A stretch of DNA of 64,000 nucleotides from positions 682,001 through 746,000 of the forward strand of contig NZ_LRXL01000026.1 in assembly GCF_001637325.1 (NCBI RefSeq). The letters are read 5' to 3'. This document shows, in pieces, positions 51,712 to 56,028 of the stretch. Each line of letters opens with the position of its first letter. Within the stretch, counting starts at the first letter, position 1. A model generated the notes under the pieces. The model made no database searches. It was given only the letters and a program-made list of their open reading frames with translations, and had not been told where the DNA came from. The stretch is from Cochleicola gelatinilyticus. GTDB taxonomy: Bacteria > Bacteroidota > Bacteroidia > Flavobacteriales > Flavobacteriaceae. A program made the translations under genes and the position numbers.

Positions 51712-52983
51712 ATGAAGCAAAACGGTACTCGCATAGCTACTTTGTCACCTGAATCGCATTTTTATGCTATTGGGTTGAATTACCAAAAGGCAGACGCAGA
51801 AATTCGTGGACATTTTAGCATTTCTGAAACAGCTCAAAAAAATATTCTAGAACAAGCCAAGCACCAAAATATTGAATCCTTAAGTGTAATTTCTACCTGT
51901 AACAGGACCGAACTCTACGGCTTCGCTACACACGCCGATCAATTTATAAATCTCTTATGTGAACATACACAGGGTACGGTAGAAGAGTTTGAAAAAGTAG
52001 CCTATGTGCTAAAAGGCGAACAAGCAATTTCACATCTTTTTAAAGTTGGTACGGGATTAGACAGTCAGATTCTCGGAGATTTCGAGATTATAAGTCAGTT
52101 GCGGCAAGGGTTTAAACGTTCTAAAAAAATGGGATTGCTTAATAACTTCATGGAACGGTTAGGCAATGAAGTTATTCGCGCCAGCAAACGTATAAAGAAC
52201 GAGACCGAAATTTCAAGTGGAGCCACCTCGGTAAGTTTTGCTGCTGTACAATACATAATGGCACGAGTTCCTTATGTTTCAGAAAAAAACCTGTTGCTTT
52301 TCGGAACAGGAAAAATTGGGCGAAATACTTGTGAAAATTTAATTAAGCACACCCAAAACGGACATATTACCCTCATTAACCGAACGAAGGATAAAGCAGA
52401 AAAGATCGCAGGAAAATTTAACCTTATCGTTAAAGATTACGCCGACATTCAAAGTGAGATCGCACAAACCGATGTGCTTATTGTAGCGACTGGAGCACAG
52501 CAGCCTACGATTTCTAAAGAATTATTGTTTCTGAAAAAATCCTTACTTATACTCGATCTTTCTATTCCTAAGAATGTAGCTTCAGACGTAACTGAAAATG
52601 AATTTGTTACGTTGGTTCACTTAGATGAACTTTCAAAAGTAACGGACAAGACATTGGCTCACAGAGCTTCACAGATTCCAATTGCAAAGGCCATTATTCA
52701 AGAAATTGAAGCCGAGTTTAATCAATGGGTTCAGAACCGAAAATTTGCACCTACCATTCAAGCGTTAAAATCGAAACTTTCAGAAATAAAAATGGGAGAA
52801 ATCGATTTTCAACGAAGAAAGCGCTCCGATTTTAATGAGGAGCAGGCAGAGATTATTAGCAATCGGATTATACAGAAGATTACGACACATGTTGCCAATC
52901 ATTTAAAAGACGATACGTTCGAGACAGCCGATAGCGTTGCTCTTATTCAAAAAGTATTTCAACTTTCAAATTCAGAACTTTGA
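51712..52983 (+). CDS. hemA: glutamyl-tRNA reductase
   Basis: 423 residues from the ATG at 51712. Catalytic C63 is in VISTCNRTELYG. The NADPH domain starts with LLFGTGKIGRNTCENLI, and LILDLSIPKNV and the C-terminal dimer helix follow. It reduces glutamyl-tRNA to glutamate-1-semialdehyde, the first step of the C5 pathway. A much earlier in-frame GTG would include the promoter, so it is rejected. The stop overlaps the TTG start of hemC by 4 bases. hemL, the next enzyme, is absent from the window. Confidence 0.95.
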   Translation: MKQNGTRIATLSPESHFYAIGLNYQKADAEIRGHFSISETAQKNILEQAKHQNIESLSVISTCNRTELYGFATHADQFINLLCEHTQGTVEEFEKVAYVLKGEQAISHLFKVGTGLDSQILGDFEIISQLRQGFKRSKKMGLLNNFMERLGNEVIRASKRIKNETEISSGATSVSFAAVQYIMARVPYVSEKNLLLFGTGKIGRNTCENLIKHTQNGHITLINRTKDKAEKIAGKFNLIVKDYADIQSEIAQTDVLIVATGAQQPTISKELLFLKKSLLILDLSIPKNVASDVTENEFVTLVHLDELSKVTDKTLAHRASQIPIAKAIIQEIEAEFNQWVQNRKFAPTIQALKSKLSEIKMGEIDFQRRKRSDFNEEQAEIISNRIIQKITTHVANHLKDDTFETADSVALIQKVFQLSNSEL

Positions 52984-53891
52984 TAAAGACCCTTCGTATT
53001 GGAACTCGCGACAGTGAATTAGCCCTTTGGCAGGCGAATACTGTTAAAGAAAAACTGGAAGAACTAGGATATATTGCAGAACTGGTTCCTGTAAAATCTA
53101 CTGGAGATTTAGTGCTAGACAAACCATTATACGAATTGGGGATCACTGGCATTTTCACAAAAACACTCGATGTTGCCATGCTTAACGGAACGGTAGATAT
53201 AGCGGTTCATAGCATGAAAGATGTCCCGACTCGGCTTCCTAAAGGAATCATTCAAACTGCGGTTTTAGAGCGTGCTGCTTCCGAAGATATTATCGTAACA
53301 AAAGGAACCGTAAATTATGCTGCCGCTTGTACGGTCGCAACTGGAAGCCTTCGTAGAAAAGCACAATGGCTGCATCAGTACCCGAATCACACAATGGTCG
53401 ACCTGCGTGGAAATGTAAATACCCGACTGCAAAAACTAGAAGATAATAATTGGCAAGGTGCAATTTTTGCCAAGGCCGGACTGGAACGCATCCATGTGCT
53501 CCCAGAAACACACACCCTATTAGACTGGATGCTACCGGCCCCTTCACAAGGAGCAATGGTAATTGTGGCGTTGGAAAATGATGCTTTCAGTATAGAGGCT
53601 ACTTCCAAATTAAATCATCGTGCTTCAGAAATAACCACACACATTGAACGTGATTTTTTACGTACCCTCGAGGGCGGATGTACGGCTCCAATAGGTGCTT
53701 TGGCGGAGATCGTAGGAAAGAAAATTCAATTTAAAGGTGCTTTGTTTTCATTAAATGGTGAAACAAAGATTGAAATTGAAAAAACAACTTCTGTCGATAC
53801 TTTTTTAGACTTCGGAAAAAAATGTGCCACTTATATTTTAGAGAATGGTGGTAAAGAATTGATGCAGGCTATTAAAAAAGAGATGAAATAA
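52980..53891 (+). CDS. hemC: hydroxymethylbilane synthase
   Basis: 303 residues starting with TTG (TTGA overlap with the hemA stop): MIKTLRIGTRDSELALWQA, the standard start. Also visible: VKSTGDL, HSMKDVPT, TGSLRRKAQ, LRGNVNTRLQKL, and the dipyrromethane attachment C234 in LEGGCTAPIGA. It polymerises four porphobilinogens to hydroxymethylbilane in the cytoplasm. It ends 46 bases before the DUF559-HemD gene, and an inverted-repeat unit begins 5 bases after its stop. Confidence 0.95.
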   Translation: MIKTLRIGTRDSELALWQANTVKEKLEELGYIAELVPVKSTGDLVLDKPLYELGITGIFTKTLDVAMLNGTVDIAVHSMKDVPTRLPKGIIQTAVLERAASEDIIVTKGTVNYAAACTVATGSLRRKAQWLHQYPNHTMVDLRGNVNTRLQKLEDNNWQGAIFAKAGLERIHVLPETHTLLDWMLPAPSQGAMVIVALENDAFSIEATSKLNHRASEITTHIERDFLRTLEGGCTAPIGALAEIVGKKIQFKGALFSLNGETKIEIEKTTSVDTFLDFGKKCATYILENGGKELMQAIKKEMK

Positions 53892-53895
53892 TTTA

Positions 53896-53932
53896 CCTCA
53901 TCCCCAGCCCTTCTCCTACTAAGAAGGGATAG
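53896..53932. repeat. left terminal inverted repeat of DUF559 cassette
   Basis: Starts CCTCATCCCCAGCCC and contains the hairpin CCCTTC...GAAGGG. Its reverse complement aligns along its length with 54281-54315 (which ends GGGACGGGGTGAGG), with several mismatches. It lies between the hemC stop and the start codon of the chimera. Confidence 0.7.
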
Positions 53933-53937
53933 TTTAT

Positions 53938-54963
53938 ATGAAGAAACCCAATAAAATAGCGATCGCAAGACACCTCAGGCAGCAACAAACTCCAGCTGAA
54001 AAAGAACTATGGACAGTATTACGCAATCGTAATTTTGAAAATTTAAAGTTTCGCAGACAACATCCCATTAAGGAATATATTGTTGATTTCTATTGTGATG
54101 CTTTACGGCTAATTATCGAACTTGATGAAGGTTATCACAACAATGGGGAGCAAAAAGAAAGAGACCATTTGCGTGACTTGCATTTACAGAAATTAGGATA
54201 TCATGTATTAAGGTTTCAAAATAAAGTGGTTTTTGAAGACTTGAACTCTATTTATGAGGCCATCAAAAAACTACAACCACTTTCCCCCTCTCAGCGGGAG
54301 AGGGACGGGGTGAGGGGTCTTTCTATACTTTCCACAAAAAAACTCCTCCTCAATCAGAAAGAATTGCTTCTCAACGCTAGAGTTTCGTTGGTTGAATATG
54401 ATGCTATTTCTATTGAATATCTAGATTTTGAAGCTCCTTCAGTAATAGAAAATGCTATTTTTACCAGTCAGAACGGAGTACGGGCTGTTGAAAATTTAGG
54501 ATTAAAAATTGAGAATTGCTTTTGTGTCGGTAAGAAAACAAAAGCGCTCCTCGAAACGAAAGGTCAAAATGTGATTAAAACGAGTGAATATGGGGCTGAA
54601 TTGGCAGCATACATCGTAAAAAACTATAAAAAAGAATCTTTTTACCAATTTTGCGGAACGATACGTCGGGAGGAAATTCCTTCAGAATTAAATAAAGCCA
54701 ACATACCTCTAACTGAAATTACCACCTATCAAACCGTATTAAAGCCAAAGAAATTTGAACGAATTTTCGATGCTGTGTTGTTTTTTAGTCCGAGTGGTGT
54801 TCAAAGTTTTCTCCTAGAGAATGACTCCACCAATAGCCCCGTGATTTGTATAGGAACGACAACCGCTTCCGAAGCAAAAAAATATTTTAAGAATGTAGTG
54901 ATCGCAAATGCTACCACCGTAGAAAGTGTGATCGCAAAAGCAATTAAAACGATTAAAAACTAA
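53938..54963 (+). CDS. hemD: DUF559 domain fused in frame to uroporphyrinogen-III synthase (HemD)
   Basis: 341 residues in two parts. Residues 1-110 are DUF559, a PD-(D/E)xK/Vsr-like endonuclease fold: LRQQQTPAEKELWTVLRN, FRRQHPIKEYIVDFYC (D50), LIIELDEGYH (E61, D63) and LGYHVLRFQN. Residues about 111-127 are a linker from the repeat unit. From about 129 to the end is HemD (LSTKKL...YDAISIEY, AIFTSQNGVRAVE, FQTVL-type TYQTVLKPKK, FFSPSGVQSFL, CIGTTTASEA), which closes and inverts hydroxymethylbilane to uroporphyrinogen III. HemD length is normal. An in-frame GTG (54310, V125) could allow HemD to start alone. All DUF559 catalytic residues seem intact. Confidence 0.85.
   Translation: MKKPNKIAIARHLRQQQTPAEKELWTVLRNRNFENLKFRRQHPIKEYIVDFYCDALRLIIELDEGYHNNGEQKERDHLRDLHLQKLGYHVLRFQNKVVFEDLNSIYEAIKKLQPLSPSQRERDGVRGLSILSTKKLLLNQKELLLNARVSLVEYDAISIEYLDFEAPSVIENAIFTSQNGVRAVENLGLKIENCFCVGKKTKALLETKGQNVIKTSEYGAELAAYIVKNYKKESFYQFCGTIRREEIPSELNKANIPLTEITTYQTVLKPKKFERIFDAVLFFSPSGVQSFLLENDSTNSPVICIGTTTASEAKKYFKNVVIANATTVESVIAKAIKTIKN
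54281..54315. repeat. right terminal inverted repeat of DUF559 cassette
   Basis: Contains the hairpin CCCTCTC / GAGAGGG and ends GACGGGGTGAGG; its reverse complement (starting CCTCACCCCG) aligns with the left repeat at 53896. It is translated in frame as part of the DUF559-HemD linker. Confidence 0.7.
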
Positions 54964-54990: not shown

Positions 54991-56028
54991 ATGAGTACTA
55001 TAAAGAACGATTTATTTTTAAAAGCATTAAAAGGAGAAACGGTAGAACGACCACCTGTATGGATGATGCGTCAGGCAGGGCGTTATCTTCCAGAATTCAT
55101 GGAAATAAAAGCCAAATACGATTTCTTTACCCGTTGCCAAACACCAGAATTAGCCAGTGAGATTACTGTACAACCCATACGTCGTTATGGAATGGATGCG
55201 GCAATCTTGTTTAGTGATATTTTAGTGATCCCACAAGCAATGAATATCCACGTAGAAATGAAACCGGGAATTGGACCATGGCTGCCCAACCCAATACGTT
55301 CTCAAAAAGACCTTGACAGGGTTATAGTTCCGGATATTCAGGATACATTAGGATATGTAATGGATGCCATTAAAATGACCAAAGAGAAATTAAATGACGA
55401 CATTCCATTAATTGGTTTTGCAGGGAGCCCGTGGACGATTCTATGTTATTGCGTACAAGGGCAGGGCTCTAAAAACTTTGACAAAGCGAAAGAATTTTGT
55501 TTCACCCAACCAGTAGCAGCTCATGAATTACTTCAGAAAATCACTGATACTACCATTGCTTATCTTAAAGAGAAAGTAAAAGCTGGAGTAAATGCGGTAC
55601 AGGTTTTCGATAGTTGGGGCGGAATGTTATCGCCGGTAGATTATCAGGAATTTAGCTGGAAGTATATGCAGCAAATTATAGATGCCCTAAAAGACGATGC
55701 TCCCGTGATTGCCTTCGGAAAAGGGTGTTGGTTTGCTTTAGACACCATGGCAAAAAGTGGCGCTTCAGCCTTAGGAGTAGATTGGACCTGTACTCCAGAA
55801 ACTGCACGGAAACTTAGCGGTGGAAAGATCACGCTACAAGGAAATTTTGATCCCACACGCCTTTTTAGTCCTCCGTCTGAAATTAAACGAATGGTCACAG
55901 AGATGATCGATGCCTTTGGAAAAGATCGCTATATCGTAAATCTTGGGCATGGTATTCTACCCAATATCCCCATTGAAAATGCAGGTGCATTTATAGAGGC
56001 GGTTAAAGAATATAGGGTACGGTCGTGA
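54991..56028 (+). CDS. hemE: uroporphyrinogen decarboxylase
   Basis: 345 residues. The N-terminal [17 protein letters not shown] and [14 protein letters not shown] carry the substrate-binding Arg and the catalytic Asp; the second signature [12 protein letters not shown] and the C-terminal [15 protein letters not shown] follow. It removes four carboxyls to make coproporphyrinogen III in the cytoplasm. It starts 27 bases after hemD and overlaps the next gene by 4 bases (GTGA). Confidence 0.96.

Follow-up and report, generated by a model that had tools for sequence, protein, structure and literature searches.

The 64-kb stretch of the Cochleicola gelatinilyticus genome analysed here (hereafter the window) carries heme biosynthesis genes in the order hemA-hemC-[DUF559-hemD]-hemE. 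Beyond the hemC stop codon (53889-53891), a single open frame encodes a DUF559 domain, a linker and HemD, the DUF559 part lying between two inverted hairpin repeats (Table 1). The in-frame chimera described in an earlier note on this DNA was borne out: both Pfam domains are present, the frame contains neither a stop nor a frameshift between them, and the same architecture recurs in relatives. HemD is left whole, as had also been stated; Pfam, alignment and the predicted structure agree on a full uroporphyrinogen-III synthase fold in a heme operon context. The predicted structure consists of two confident domains with a disordered join (pLDDT <50 at residues 115-125), and HemD is complete in it, from its first strand onward, starting at residue 128. 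A chance fusion, or an assembly or frameshift artefact that had joined two genes, was ruled out by the independent assemblies of many genera that share this architecture; the window itself lies inside a 1.24-Mb contig, and we regard the artefact as practically inconceivable. The DUF559 domain is single-copy, being the sole one found in the 3.39-Mb genome of C. gelatinilyticus.

Table 1. Features of the DUF559-hemD locus; nucleotide positions are those of the window, and aa denotes residues of the chimera.
Feature	Position	Strand	Evidence and remarks
hemC (porphobilinogen deaminase), upstream neighbour	52980-53891	+	Pfam PF01379 (E 1.2e-65), PF03900
Left hairpin repeat, tail outward	53894-53929	+	ACCTCATCCCC AG CCCTTCTCC...GAAGGG; read directly
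DUF559-linker-HemD open reading frame	53938-54963	+	341 aa, ATG start, no internal stop
ATG of the unit, in place of the native hemD start	53938-53940	+	Start-codon scan; G168/G353 comparison
DUF559 domain	aa 8-111		Pfam PF04480 (E 7.4e-35; 119.6 bits, cut-off 20.6)
DUF559 nuclease domain with E21, D50, E61, D63, H67	53959-54270	+	Pfam PF04480, fold, conservation among chimeras
Linker peptide, encoded mostly by the right repeat	54271-54321	+	Predicted disordered
Right hairpin repeat, inverted relative to the left	54282-54317	-	Reverse complement GACCCCTCACCCC-GT-CCCTCTCCC...GAGAGGGGG
In-frame GTG within the right repeat, candidate internal HemD start	54310-54312	+	4 codons before the HemD core
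HemD (uroporphyrinogen-III synthase), complete, SILSTKKL to stop	54322-54963	+	Pfam PF02602, alignment, predicted structure
HEM4 domain (HemD)	aa 170-332		Pfam PF02602 (E 1.4e-27)
hemE (uroporphyrinogen decarboxylase), downstream neighbour	54991-56028	+	Pfam PF01208 (E 3.4e-133)

The nuclease part is a DUF559 member, with a Pfam score over the family cut-off and a predicted Vsr/PD-(D/E)XK-type fold carrying conserved acidic and histidine residues. Among the acids previously proposed for the active site (D50, E61 and D63), D50 and D63 are invariant across the aligned chimeras, but E61 is replaced by K in one of them, and the list was incomplete, as E21 and H67 are likewise invariant and belong to the same Vsr/EDxHD-like active-site pattern. 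E21, D50, D63 and H67 would correspond to the catalytic positions of Vsr. The nearest solved folds retrieved by Foldseek are NGO0050 (3hrl), the homing endonuclease I-Bth0305I (3r3p) and Vsr (1cw0). In close pairs with usable dS, several of them with dS >1, dN/dS was 0.04-0.12 for DUF559 and 0.14-0.23 for HemD, values indicating that the DUF559 part is under strong purifying selection, tighter than HemD.

The bounding hairpin repeats, which the earlier note had overlooked together with the loss of the native hemD ATG while correctly recognising an in-frame insertion, are the key to what the unit is. The right repeat is translated and yields the linker PLSPSQRERDGVRG. A repeat model (R1) was built from 17 sequences, including the two ends in the window, and accordingly matches sequences used in its own construction at the left (G000:C25:735894-735929, E 5.8e-5) and right (G000:C25:736282-736317, E 4.9e-8) repeats; it is a sequence-only model without base pairs, MAFFT having left the hairpin arms unaligned, and counts just repeats close to the hemD type. 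Read in this way, R1 has three matches in the 3.39-Mb genome, namely the two unit ends and one intergenic copy (L235, G000:C25:210340-210374), the latter lying among several similar hairpins clustered in a short intergenic stretch. The Y1/RAYT transposase is the known partner of REP repeats, and a search for it (PF01797) gave no match in this genome, while five control genomes were positive. Since R1 has just three matches and no Y1/RAYT transposase accompanies them, the hairpin ends seem to belong to the DUF559 unit and not to a repeat found across the genome. A REP cluster or RAYT origin for the unit ends was ruled out by the absent Y1 transposase and the single other repeat match. Across 60 genomes, R1 matched in six, with no clear link between repeat abundance and the presence of DUF559. 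One of the genomes (G023, 2.6 Mb) contains 21 similar repeats and one DUF559 match.

The arrangement at hemD is recurrent. A search with a chimera profile recovered nine full chimeras from 400 Flavobacteriaceae genomes, distributed over nine genera, and the GTDB species genomes added at least eight from Dokdonia, Leeuwenhoekiella, Flagellimonas pacifica and Aquimarina, including named or uncultured relatives, giving a total of at least 17 chimeras in about a dozen Flavobacteriaceae genera. A class-wide sample contained no additional hemD chimera outside the family. The insertion point is constant: in all chimeras found, the unit ends directly before (I)LSTKKL, the first strand of HemD. A split form exists in G312, from the genus of Leptobacterium flavescens, in which the unit is a separate open frame with an extra repeat and hemD keeps its own ATG. 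The DUF559 domains of the chimeras and of this split form make up one clade among 122 DUF559 domains (SH-aLRT 98). The view of the chimera as a good case of a tolerated unit stands as far as in-frame tolerance is concerned, but the case is not a single one, being recurrent in the family and old at hemD. Lone hairpin repeats in frame inside HemD were also observed in several Dokdonia and Leeuwenhoekiella (L131, L133, L135, L136, L139 and L140), encoding peptides such as LPSPSGEELGMR.

Comparison with a close relative lacking the unit, a check that had been suggested for the hemC-hemD junction, showed what became of the hemD start. Leeuwenhoekiella polynyae G168 (occupied) and its close relative G353 (empty) are 96.7 and 95.7% identical in the flanks, and at the junction 447 nt including the unit correspond to 18 nt ending in the ATG of hemD. 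The occupied allele thus lacks the native hemD start and uses the ATG of the unit. A scan of nine chimeras for internal starts showed five in which the 44 codons preceding the HemD core contain no in-frame ATG and the last 18 of them no GTG. Internal initiation in these five would have to take place inside DUF559 or at a weak TTG or GTG; lacking a plausible internal start, they must be translated as fusions. This ruled out an internal start as the general rule. The proposal that HemD might be made from an internal start such as the GTG at 54310 is accordingly retained for this strain only, where the in-frame codon could possibly start a short HemD. We infer that the full-length fusion is the main HemD of C. 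gelatinilyticus. The alternative that two proteins are produced, HemD arising by internal initiation (at GTG 54310 in this strain) or by proteolysis in the linker and DUF559 being merely translated upstream, would be consistent with the proximity of that GTG to the HemD core, with a close ATG or GTG in three other chimeras of the nine scanned, with the predicted disorder of the linker and with the separate hemD start retained in G312. It is nevertheless rather unlikely in view of the five chimeras without nearby starts and of the fused frame found in 17 of 18 cases (at least 17 chimeras, in a search whose profile favours fused forms).

The argument that hemD is essential, so that either the fusion or an internal start has to work, is weakened by a second HEM4-domain protein of 248 aa encoded in the window genome (L236:608-1354; G000:C25:513107-513853), whose gene is present in nearly all relatives. 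This protein may supply some synthase activity.

The presence or absence of the hemD unit required 12 changes on a host tree of 44 rows, at least five of them forced by well-supported branches. In the tree of hemC and hemD, the empty G353 is nested among occupied Leeuwenhoekiella (branches 100/99 and 98/94), and its empty state is therefore most likely due to loss of the unit; the start codon of G353 may be the ATG of the unit left behind. Among occupied genomes, the host topology was not rejected by the DUF559 data (AU p = 0.08), DUF559 and host distances were in proportion (median ratio 0.98), and fourfold-site identity of unit and host was similar in close pairs. The AU test, the distance ratios and the fourfold sites, used to look for recent horizontal spread or homing at hemD, gave no sign of either. 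The units of the window, Dokdonia sinensis, Leeuwenhoekiella and G303 have repeats with outward-pointing tails, and in the rest of the chimeras inspected the tails point inward, these two orientation groups tracking a deep host split. Taken together, the AU test, distances, fourfold sites and orientation groups argue for one or two old insertions, inherited mostly vertically and lost many times. Dokdonia sinensis may be an exception to the vertical pattern, its DUF559 falling with Leeuwenhoekiella with weak support.

Age and vertical descent at hemD, strong purifying selection, the retention of catalytic residues and the preponderance of fused forms (at least 17 versus one split form) would also be expected of a domesticated fusion kept for a benefit to the cell, such as regulation, DNA repair or defence, with mobility merely its history. 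We consider this unlikely: the 12 changes of state and the empty species nested in occupied Leeuwenhoekiella imply that the unit is dispensable, and related units occupy genes with no link to heme.

DUF559 was detected in 144 of the 301 Flavobacteriaceae genomes sampled, 45 among the matches listed belonging to open frames 300 or more residues long; as the query guided the sampling, these counts are not frequencies. In-frame units were found at fixed places in the leuS editing domain, metH (two sites), ileS and the end of hisD, and in recG between the DEQH and TATPIPRT motifs. Most in-frame DUF559 units outside hemD are flanked by hairpin-coded peptides, for example PSPSGRGAGGEG. Within a single genus, recG occurs with the full unit (G272), with an in-frame scar containing the left repeat (G422) and empty (G019; loci L074, L221 and L222). 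Beyond Flavobacteriaceae, Pfam-confirmed DUF559 domains share an open frame, as insertions or as fusions, with RimM, UvrC, S-adenosylhomocysteine hydrolase, urocanase, a radical SAM protein, an ArgB-like amino acid kinase, FtsJ, a type ISP restriction enzyme and, in an SR1 bacterium, the LeuRS editing domain. The corresponding loci are L162, L182, L147, L185, L200, L178, L180, L166, L198 and L205, covering leuS (SR1), uvrC (Gracilibacteria), ahcY, hutU, rimM, argB, the radical SAM gene, FtsJ and the type ISP gene. DUF559 insertions in unrelated host genes of Bacteroidota had been called known; the sequences do contain such units, but the statement was not confirmed in the literature searched, since the open-access papers searched yielded nothing relevant on in-frame DUF559 units, COG2852/YcjD or HemD fusions; such units may be described elsewhere.

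The metH gene of G239 (L034/L211) harbors two DUF559 units, one at the B12 site and one in the activation domain, which share 83% identity across exactly 418 bp, from AGCCCCCC to GGGGGGCT, the similarity stopping sharply at the terminal repeats. The two are sister sequences in the DUF559 tree, and the activation-domain site carries the full unit in G239, just a lone repeat in G200 and no insert in G290 or G228. This pair is the clearest evidence that a whole unit is mobile. If a mobile unit is recognised by a block present twice in one genome and by empty sites in relatives, both were found for the metH units; for the hemD unit, only the second was found, in the empty allele of G353, and the unit is single-copy in its own genome. 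In G200 (L215), the lone repeat is 30 nt long, in frame (SPLGGDLEAA) and located exactly at the site of the G239 unit, like a solo end left behind.

These data also bear on whether the repeats could instead form an unrelated REP-like family mobilised by another enzyme, with DUF559 as a passenger between two copies. Lone repeats in frame within HemD and MetH of relatives, the 21 repeats of G023 against its one DUF559 match, and the variation of repeat orientation at the hemD unit between host groups would fit such a passenger. This explanation is improbable, as the window genome lacks a Y1 transposase and contains just one other R1 match, paired inverted ends delimit most of the DUF559 units inspected, and in metH the two repeats and DUF559 moved together as the 418-bp block.

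We consider it likely that the insertion is a mobile DUF559 unit of about 0.42 kb with hairpin ends, in frame at hemD, old there, mainly vertically inherited and often lost. Such a unit would comprise a hairpin repeat, a DUF559 nuclease gene and an inverted hairpin repeat in about 0.42 kb, and would most likely be a minimal mobile element whose sole protein is a Vsr/EDxHD-like nuclease. On its insertion at the hemC-hemD junction, the own start codon of hemD would have been removed and the ATG of the unit lent to hemD, HemD then being made as the C-terminal part of DUF559-linker-HemD. The frame stays open across the host-side end, so that the unit would be expressed within the host protein, borrowing its expression from the heme operon. 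The unit would be tolerated because it enters just before the first strand of HemD and brings a flexible repeat-coded linker, and the open frame into the host gene would make imprecise deletion costly to the host. The DUF559 protein presumably moves the unit, or converts empty alleles, by nicking or cutting DNA, through homing or transposition. More tentatively, and with somewhat less confidence than an even balance would warrant, REP-bounded DUF559 units may constitute a widespread, undescribed mobile class that colonises conserved and frequently essential genes, staying in frame and needing no splicing, its palindromic ends doubling as DNA termini and flexible linkers and its expression coming from the host gene; the hemD chimera would be one old lineage of this class.

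Selfish nucleases within genes are thought to require introns or inteins to spare the host. For DUF559 units, palindromic ends that keep the frame and a tolerant position seem to suffice, in genes such as leuS, metH, recG and hemD, and an in-frame, non-splicing way of life for selfish DNA inside genes appears to be undescribed. If this is true, selfish DNA inside an essential gene without splicing becomes a directly testable question, a domain whose function is still listed as unknown (DUF559) acquires a candidate role, and unusual peptide insertions and problematic start sites of many bacterial proteins in annotation would be explained.

The unit shares features with several known systems. 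Inteins and group I introns with homing endonucleases also set the gene for a nuclease within a conserved host gene and have occupied and empty alleles, as seen here in close relatives for recG (one genus) and hemD (G168/G353). The unit differs from them in its uninterrupted open frame, in the lack of any visible splicing domain and in the predicted persistence of the insert as a separate domain; the Pfam scan detected no Hint or other splicing domain around the nuclease, whose flanks are hairpin repeats and the disordered linker. The EDxHD/Vsr-type homing endonuclease I-Bth0305I (PDB 3r3p) belongs to the same fold neighbourhood, with a weak sequence match, and likewise uses conserved sites in conserved genes; however, it is recorded as a mobile intron protein, whereas no intron or intein was seen with the DUF559 unit, whose nuclease stays in the host protein, and the recent horizontal spread that would mark a homing endonuclease was not found at the hemD site. 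REPtrons, in which a RAYT transposase lies between REPs, resemble the unit in that inverted hairpin repeats enclose one gene, but here DUF559 replaces the Y1 transposase and the window genome encodes no Y1 family protein.

In-frame palindromic elements as such are already known (PMC3733652). Like Rickettsia palindromic elements (RPE) and intragenic REP repeats, the hemD unit and its relatives represent palindromic DNA inside protein-coding genes with the frame kept, and lone-repeat peptide insertions occur here too; the former, however, are reported to be short, encoding tens of residues (PMC3733652 and references there), whereas here a whole conserved nuclease domain lies between paired inverted repeats. 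Finally, stand-alone DUF559 proteins, such as the E. coli YcjD family (PRK09767), Neisseria NGO0050 (3hrl) and Caulobacter VsrA (PMC12907096), belong to the same domain family but are encoded by separate genes; VsrA has been proposed to be a Vsr-like mismatch enzyme (PMC12907096).
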